Below are positions 23,643 to 25,598 of a stretch of DNA of 52,386 nucleotides, one piece after another. The stretch comes from Methanosaeta sp. PtaB.Bin018 (lineage in GTDB: Archaea > Halobacteriota > Methanosarcinia > Methanotrichales > Methanotrichaceae). The stretch covers positions 1 to 52,386 of the forward strand of contig MVQH01000097.1 in assembly GCA_002067755.1 (NCBI GenBank), given 5' to 3'. Below the pieces are notes generated by a model that ran no database searches, was not told the DNA's origin, and worked only from the letters and a program-made list of their open reading frames with translations. The translations under genes were made by a program, and so were the position numbers. Position 1 is the stretch's first letter. Every line of letters begins with the position of its first letter.

Positions 23643-25598
23643 ATGCACGAGCACAGGGTAACCGTGGGCTTGATTCAGACCTCTGTTTCAGAGGACCTCA
23701 ATCAAAATCTTAGAAAGGCTGTTTCAAAAGTGGAGCAGGCCATTGCCAGAGGGGCCAAGATCATCTGCCTTCAGGAACTTTATAGAATGCGCTACTTCCC
23801 GCAGTGGGAGATGAGGGATGTGTTCGGCCTTGCAGAGACAATTCCCGGGGAGTCGACGGCTGTCTTCTCAGAAATGGCAAAAAAACATGATGTAGTGATG
23901 ATAGTGCCTGTCTTCGAGAAGGACGAGGCAGGCTACTACAATTCCGTTGCAGTCATCGATGCAGACGGAAGCCTGCAAAAGACCTACCGAAAGGTTCACA
24001 TCCCCCACGATCCCATGTTTTATGAGAAGAGCTATTTTGCAGCAGGCGATGAGTTCCAGGTTTACGATACCCGCTATGGCAGGCTCGCAGTGCTCATCTG
24101 CTACGACCAGTGGTTCCCTGAAGCTGCCCGCGTGGTCGCTTTGCGAGGAGCGCAAATAATATTCTATCCCACGGCCATCGGCTGGATTGTGGGCGAGGAG
24201 AATCCTGAGGAGGGCGACTGGCGTGATGCCTGGGTGACTGTCCAGCGCAGCCATGCAATCACAAACAGTGTGTGCGTTGCCGCTGTCAACCGCGTCGGCC
24301 TGGAGGATGGCCAGAATTTTTGGGGAGGCTCTTTTGTATGCGATTCCTTTGGCAGGATCCTGGCCAAAGCAAGCGATAAGGCGGAAGAGGTTCTCGTGGC
24401 AGAGCTCGACCTGGCCCAGAACGAGGTCGTGCGAGAGGGCTGGGGCTTCTTTTGCAACCGGCGTCCAGACACCTACTGGCCCCTGATCGAGATGGTGCAG
24501 GAGAAGGGGGCGAGAGGGTTGGGCTCAGGCAAAAAGGCAACGGGAAAGAGCCTATCGCTCGAGGATACACCACGCCAACTGGGCTATCACATGCCTGCCG
24601 AGTGGGAGAGGCATGAGGCCATTTGGCTCTCCTGGCCTTACGACCTGGACAGCTTCCCGCAGATCGAGAAGGTAGAGAGGGCTTACGTTGACATAATCAA
24701 AGCCATCCACAGGAGCGAAATTGTAAACCTCTTGGTGAAGGACGAGCTGATGCTCGGCCGGGTAGTTGAGATGCTGAGAGACGCAGCGATAGACCTCTCC
24801 AAAGTCAAGTTTCACCAGATGAGCTATGCCGATGTCTGGTTCAGGGACTATGGGCCCACATTCGTGCTCAACCGGGAAGAGAGGAAGGGCAGGCTGGCCA
24901 TGGTCAATTGGATATTCAATGCCTGGGGCGAGAAGTATCCGGAACTGATGGCAGACTCCAGGATCCCCTGCCTCATGAACGATGATCTGTTGCTGGATTG
25001 CTTCATGCCAGGCATAGTGCTTGAGGGCGGTTCAATCGATGTGAACGGCTGTGGAACGGTCCTGACCACTGAGCAGTGCCTCTTGAACAAGAATAGAAAT
25101 CCATCTTTGAGCAAAGAAGAGATCGAGGCTTATCTGAAGGAGTATTTGGGCGTCAGAAAGGTCATCTGGCTGAAGAAGGGGATCGCAGGCGACGACACAG
25201 ACGGCCACGTGGACGACGTCGCAAGGTTCGTAAATCCCAACACGGTGCTCTGTGCATATGAGGAAGATCCAGAAGATGAGAACTACCAGGTCCTGAAGGA
25301 GAACTATGAGCTTCTCTGCCAGGAGACTGATCAGGATAAAGGTCCCCTGAAGGTCATCAAGCTGCCAATGCCAGGGTTCGTGGGCAAGGAGCGTCGACTG
25401 CCGGCGAGCTATGCCAACTTCTACATCGGAAACGATGTGGTCCTGGTGCCCATGTTTGGCCACAAGAACGACAAAGCAGCGCAAAAGATCATTCAGGAGG
25501 CTTTCTTGGATAGGAAGGTCGTGGGGATCAACTGCAGGGAGATGGTGCATGGCCTTGGTACAGTGCACTGCATCAGCCTGCAGCAGCCTGAGCAATAG
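23643..25598 (+). CDS. bifunctional N-carbamoylputrescine amidase / agmatine deiminase
   Basis: This single 651-residue chain carries both steps that turn agmatine into putrescine. The N-terminal nitrilase-fold domain (about 1-282) keeps the catalytic triad Glu45 (LQELY), Lys117 (YRKVHIP) and Cys153 (LICYDQW), with features of N-carbamoylputrescine amidase. A Lys/Gly-rich linker (about 285-312) leads to an agmatine deiminase domain (about 315-651). That domain has MPAEWERHEA, WFRDYGPT, LEGGSIDVNG, the DDTDGHVDD motif and nucleophile Cys643 in GTVHCIS. AguA and AguB are usually separate adjacent genes, so the fusion is unusual. The deiminase product would be the amidase substrate, suggesting channelling. 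Agmatine would come from arginine decarboxylase elsewhere. Confidence 0.9.
   Translation: MHEHRVTVGLIQTSVSEDLNQNLRKAVSKVEQAIARGAKIICLQELYRMRYFPQWEMRDVFGLAETIPGESTAVFSEMAKKHDVVMIVPVFEKDEAGYYNSVAVIDADGSLQKTYRKVHIPHDPMFYEKSYFAAGDEFQVYDTRYGRLAVLICYDQWFPEAARVVALRGAQIIFYPTAIGWIVGEENPEEGDWRDAWVTVQRSHAITNSVCVAAVNRVGLEDGQNFWGGSFVCDSFGRILAKASDKAEEVLVAELDLAQNEVVREGWGFFCNRRPDTYWPLIEMVQEKGARGLGSGKKATGKSLSLEDTPRQLGYHMPAEWERHEAIWLSWPYDLDSFPQIEKVERAYVDIIKAIHRSEIVNLLVKDELMLGRVVEMLRDAAIDLSKVKFHQMSYADVWFRDYGPTFVLNREERKGRLAMVNWIFNAWGEKYPELMADSRIPCLMNDDLLLDCFMPGIVLEGGSIDVNGCGTVLTTEQCLLNKNRNPSLSKEEIEAYLKEYLGVRKVIWLKKGIAGDDTDGHVDDVARFVNPNTVLCAYEEDPEDENYQVLKENYELLCQETDQDKGPLKVIKLPMPGFVGKERRLPASYANFYIGNDVVLVPMFGHKNDKAAQKIIQEAFLDRKVVGINCREMVHGLGTVHCISLQQPEQ

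Follow-up and report, generated by a model that had tools for sequence, protein, structure and literature searches.

The fused gene and its two domains

The window, a 52,386-nucleotide stretch from a Methanothrix genome, carries at positions 23643-25598 of the (+) strand one uninterrupted ATG-to-TAG open reading frame, which encodes 651 amino acids and both a nitrilase-fold and a pentein domain with no internal stop. The original prediction had placed two such domains in one polypeptide of a methanogen, joined by a short Lys/Gly-rich linker, and in this it was right, as the host is a Methanothrix species, CN_hydrolase (PF00795) covers residues 8-261, PAD_porph (PF04371) covers residues 316-649, and the stretch between the domains (about residues 284-306) is rich in Lys and Gly in this species. 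The features are as follows.

23643..25598, + strand: fused aguB-aguA gene, 651 aa, single open reading frame
23643..24491, + strand: N-terminal nitrilase-fold domain, N-carbamoylputrescine amidase-like, residues 1-283 (PF00795, TIGR03381 match below cut-off, Foldseek)
23775..23777, + strand: catalytic Glu45, aligning with Medicago Glu48, conserved in all fused rows
23991..23993, + strand: catalytic Lys117, aligning with Medicago Lys121, invariant
24024..24026, + strand: second Glu128, aligning with Medicago Glu132, invariant
24099..24101, + strand: catalytic Cys153, nucleophile, aligning with Medicago Cys158, invariant
24492..24560, + strand: interdomain linker, residues 284-306, unconserved and of variable length (column identity, pLDDT)
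24561..25595, + strand: C-terminal pentein domain, agmatine deiminase-like, residues 307-651 (PF04371, TIGR03380 match below cut-off, Foldseek)
24846..24848, + strand: Asp402, Medicago AIH position 94 by alignment, invariant
25206..25214, + strand: His522 and Asp524 of the deiminase catalytic set, Medicago His224 and Asp226 by alignment, invariant
25569..25571, + strand: catalytic Cys643, Medicago Cys366 by alignment, invariant

Since the same single frame recurs in independent genomes, two of them with 94% and 92% identity and most other Methanothrix with 69-77%, the fusion is not an artefact of assembly, sequencing or frame. The gene neighbourhood gives no clear functional hint, because a DUF166 gene lies 3' of the fused gene in its closest relatives only and a CitMHS gene lies upstream of it in several Methanothrix.

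In the N-terminal half, the PF00795 match (189.3 bits, E=1e-55) is well above the Pfam cut-off of 23.2, and the best amidase match is the N-carbamoylputrescine amidase equivalog TIGR03381, at 284 bits (E=1e-84) and below its curated cut-off of 410.25. Among solved structures the nearest come from a Helicobacter pylori carbon-nitrogen hydrolase and from the Medicago N-carbamoylputrescine amidohydrolase (NCPAH), the latter being matched by the predicted model in Foldseek (5h8i, TMt 0.81). Catalysis in Medicago NCPAH relies on Glu48, Lys121 and Cys158 together with Glu132 (PMC4812014). The Glu-Lys-Cys triad of the PF00795 family is complete in the Methanothrix protein, and the set Glu45-Lys117-Cys153, previously proposed to be intact, lies at just these positions and is invariant in the relatives. 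The amidase loop which bears the substrate-tail Glu187 in Medicago reads differently here, as WIVGEENPEEGDW; Glu185 aligns with that residue and is a plausible substitute for it, though a Glu is found at this position in only 22 of the 35 fused rows.

In the C-terminal half, PF04371 was matched with 400.7 bits (E=6e-120; Pfam cut-off 25) and the agmatine deiminase equivalog TIGR03380 with 308.8 bits (E=4e-92), again below the curated cut-off (381.8). Of the solved structures, Chlorobium 1xkn and a number of agmatine deiminases lie nearest, and with the predicted model Foldseek returned the agmatine deiminases 1xkn, 6nic and 2jer. In Medicago AIH, Cys366, His224 and Asp226 are catalytic, and position 94, Trp91, Trp125, Asp220 and Asp89 lie around agmatine (PMC6447857). 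Taken in the order Asp89, Trp91, 94, Trp125, Asp220, His224, Asp226 and Cys366, these positions correspond to Asp397, Trp399, Asp402, Trp428, Asp518, His522, Asp524 and Cys643, all eight of them unvarying in 35 fused proteins, while position 638, a Gly in plants (Gly361), is occupied by Leu here. Cys643 had been correctly singled out beforehand as the deiminase nucleophile; its partners Asp402, His522 and Asp524, which had then gone unmentioned, are also present.

As both domains fall under the TIGR03381 and TIGR03380 cut-offs, the protein is filed as a member of PF00795 and PF04371 which would work like AguB and AguA, its substrate specificity being judged from sequence, and is certified in neither equivalog. 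The same applies to an unfused sister (genome G026), in which both proteins also score below the equivalog cut-offs, its deiminase reaching 315.3 against TIGR03380. The residue comparison covered 35 fused proteins and as many unfused relatives; Glu/Lys/Cys of the amidase and Asp/His/Asp/Cys of the deiminase are kept throughout both sets, except for one gap in one unfused row. Even fused proteins with only about 50% identity have retained both catalytic sets unchanged, and conservation is equally strong in the two domains (mean column identities of 0.72 and 0.73), which makes it scarcely credible that one domain is inactive and has been kept as a structural or regulatory partner only.

Distribution and origin of the fusion

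From a collection of species-representative genomes 80 homologous loci were fetched, 38 of which have both domains in one frame (counting L039 as fused), 37 have them as two open reading frames and 5 contain one domain. Fused loci occur in Methanothrix, Methanolinea, Methanoregulaceae, Methanofollis, Methanoculleus, Methanospirillum and relatives, plus one Bathyarchaeota and one Micrarchaeota metagenome-assembled genome (MAG), and an even sample of the host phylum (246 genomes) yielded 44 strong matches, about 38 of them fused in one open frame. Moreover, a fused aguA-aguB gene was reported in passing in 2023 for a Ca. Diapherotrites archaeon (PMC10407285). The fusion had been put forward as unusual, a view which these numbers do not bear out; in fact, a fusion both common and described, the outcome named beforehand as speaking against that view, is largely what was found, the spread being wide and the description amounting to one report. 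A literature search returned no paper on methanogen fusions, which is weak evidence of absence, as subscription journals were mostly outside its reach. The Methanothrix fusion is thus frequent in its lineage and of a kind already noted once in another archaeon.

Of the 37 unfused loci, 34 place aguB directly upstream of aguA on one strand, the two matches being usually less than 200 bases apart. It is because the fusion retains this operon order that the enzyme of the second step is placed first. The original prediction had drawn attention to this arrangement; the order itself is real, but it carries no functional message, since it is the usual one of the operon. The aguB-aguA fusion arose by loss of the intergenic stop in a two-gene operon. 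In a tree of the two domains, the Halobacteriota fusions group with one split sister (L050) in one branch of support 98, and a single fused clade within Halobacteriota is compatible with the data (AU p = 0.39). One origin for all the fusions was rejected on the tree (AU p = 4e-15), the Bathyarchaeota (L024) and Micrarchaeota (L022) proteins standing apart from Halobacteriota; therefore, the fusion arose two or more times, or a single time with transfers and losses. Both of these loci are on MAG contigs, where a possible binning error could touch the taxon name and not the fused frame. The reverse step has probably also taken place: in genome G210 (L151:1477-3420) the two domains are separate open reading frames which share one frame and are parted by a TGA in the linker, and one TGA inside the match was also counted in two congeners (G147 and G108). 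This split is read as a secondary reversal because the other members of the family are fused, these genomes lying outside the tree.

The arginine-to-putrescine route in the genome

Gene content was drawn from family searches of the genome, which is 96% complete. A SpeA-type arginine decarboxylase of 644 aa is encoded on another contig (L120), with 681.6 bits against TIGR01273 (cut-off 624.1), and it exceeded both NCBIfam cut-offs in the genome family search. The pyruvoyl arginine decarboxylase (PF01862), considered as a source of agmatine, is absent from this genome and from most Methanothrix sampled, the PLP-type SpeA being found instead. Weak PvlArgDC (PF01862) matches were seen in five Methanothrix genomes (G007, G015, G017, G019 and G024), in longer frames (about 230-246 codons) which differ from the usual archaeal enzyme. 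As for a downstream route, neither SpeD nor SpeE had a match in this genome. There are two deoxyhypusine synthase paralogs, and speA stands back to back with one of them (L120:1089-4175, contig C101), a pairing which recurs by coordinates in other Methanothrix; with SpeD and SpeE missing, this paralog may make homospermidine from putrescine.

An agmatinase-family gene, above the TIGR01230 cut-off, directly follows the aIF5A gene (L121:1876-3153, contig C98). In Euryarchaeota agmatinase is known to cluster with aIF5A, an association linked to the formation of hypusine (PMC5178350), so this agmatinase may have another role. On the same contig (L123:1201-2901) a tandem pair of nitrilase domains was noticed in a protein of 566 aa; by eye, the second domain appears to lack the catalytic Cys (LLGHDL) and Lys and may be a dead copy.

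On paper, and judging from these sequence matches, the route from arginine to putrescine is complete, and its second half could be carried out by either of two enzymes. The original claim that the fusion marks such a complete route therefore stands in part: the route is present, thanks to SpeA, but the fusion alone does not mark it, since the agmatinase beside aIF5A could make putrescine as well. Among 22 genomes of the family which are at least 90% complete, 7 have aguB-aguA without an agmatinase-family gene, 5 show the reverse, 10 have both and none has neither. The chance of finding no genome that lacks both is about 0.11, a hand calculation uncorrected for relatedness, so that the pattern fits agmatinase and aguB-aguA as alternatives for one step and is suggestive only, not statistically strong.

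These data also bear on the substrate. Both domains miss their equivalog cut-offs, two deoxyhypusine synthase paralogs are present, one of them beside speA, and agmatinase is another user of agmatine in the genome, all of which leaves some room for domains acting not on agmatine but on other guanidino or carbamoyl compounds, such as guanidino intermediates from the deoxyhypusine synthase paralogs. Nevertheless, the residues placed to contact agmatine are unvarying, agmatine deiminases and N-carbamoylputrescine amidohydrolases are the nearest structures, and the genome counts fit alternatives for the same step, which renders such other substrates very unlikely.

Proposed working of the enzyme and comparison with known systems

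The fusion is a real and probably bifunctional join of two well-known enzymes. The reading we hold with high confidence is that the gene encodes a bifunctional AguB-AguA enzyme which makes putrescine from agmatine, was born by stop loss and has its linker as a passive tether. Such an enzyme of polyamine synthesis would be located in the cytoplasm and would receive its agmatine from the SpeA-type arginine decarboxylase, whose gene lies on another contig. The C-terminal pentein domain would convert agmatine into N-carbamoylputrescine and ammonia by a thiol mechanism at Cys643; the intermediate would be released and then taken by the N-terminal nitrilase domain (Glu45-Lys117-Cys153) to give putrescine, CO2 and ammonia. 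Once the stop between neighbouring aguB and aguA had been lost, the tether would have provided the two activities in equal amounts and held them close, with no channel between them; both this fixed stoichiometry and the lack of a channel are what we infer.

The linker is the point at which a more intimate arrangement has to be weighed. Its mean column identity is 0.18 (residues 284-306), against 0.72 and 0.73 in the two domains, and its length in relatives ranges from 2 to 35 residues. The AlphaFold2 model, built as a single chain with 25 aligned homologues, has confident domains, a pLDDT which drops below 50 for residues 268-303, and a pTM of 0.57. Nitrilase-fold enzymes are oligomers, and for this reason, as well as for the single chain and the shallow alignment, the model falls short of proof against channelling.

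It had been suggested that the fusion would allow channelling of N-carbamoylputrescine, from the deiminase to the amidase, and the domain-swapped C-terminal tail of the nitrilase fold, where the linker begins, might assist in this. The joining of consecutive enzymes is compatible with such a transfer; moreover, the deiminase is attached just past the tail which, in Medicago NCPAH, enters the active-site entrance of the partner subunit (Trp277*; PMC4812014), and Trp267, the equivalent of that residue, is invariant in the aligned fusions. In its strongest form, which we rate as a slim prospect, the swapped amidase tail would set the deiminase over the amidase entrance of the partner subunit, so that N-carbamoylputrescine passed directly and the protein were a true channelling enzyme. 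Nevertheless, the linker is neither conserved nor constant in length, the low pTM and the predicted disorder of the linker point to no fixed arrangement of the domains, and the genes are adjacent and unfused in a close sister genome and separated by a stop between the domains in another. The suggestion thus finds no positive support, and channelling of any kind appears unlikely; the linker as a tether is the simplest reading.

The bifunctional, passively tethered enzyme leaves established polyamine biochemistry unchallenged. Its meaning lies rather in a lineage-wide correction of annotation for putrescine synthesis in acetoclastic and hydrogenotrophic methanogens, where one gene can cover both steps and agmatinase is dispensable, and it offers a modest example of a two-gene operon becoming one gene, and sometimes two genes again, with its catalytic residues unchanged.

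Among known systems, the Ca. Diapherotrites fusion (PMC10407285) is likewise archaeal and found in a polyamine context, a likeness by description and not by sequence; it is clustered with speDA and speY, whereas the Methanothrix gene stands alone and its decarboxylase is the SpeA of another contig. The aguB-aguA tandems of Acidobacteriota, Verrucomicrobiota, Chloroflexota and Bathycorpusculum comprise the same two proteins in the same order and with the same catalytic residues, but as two open reading frames with a stop between them, where Methanothrix has one. Medicago truncatula AIH (6nib/6nic) and NCPAH (5h8i) share with the fusion their folds, their catalytic residues and, presumably, their reactions, although they are separate chains, NCPAH being an octamer and AIH a dimer, and they differ from it in the substrate-tail loop and at Gly361. 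Finally, the closest solved relative of the C-terminal domain is the PAD_porph protein of Chlorobium tepidum (1xkn; 48% identity, TMt 0.91), which has one domain and whose deposition names it only as a putative deiminase, whereas the Methanothrix protein has two domains.
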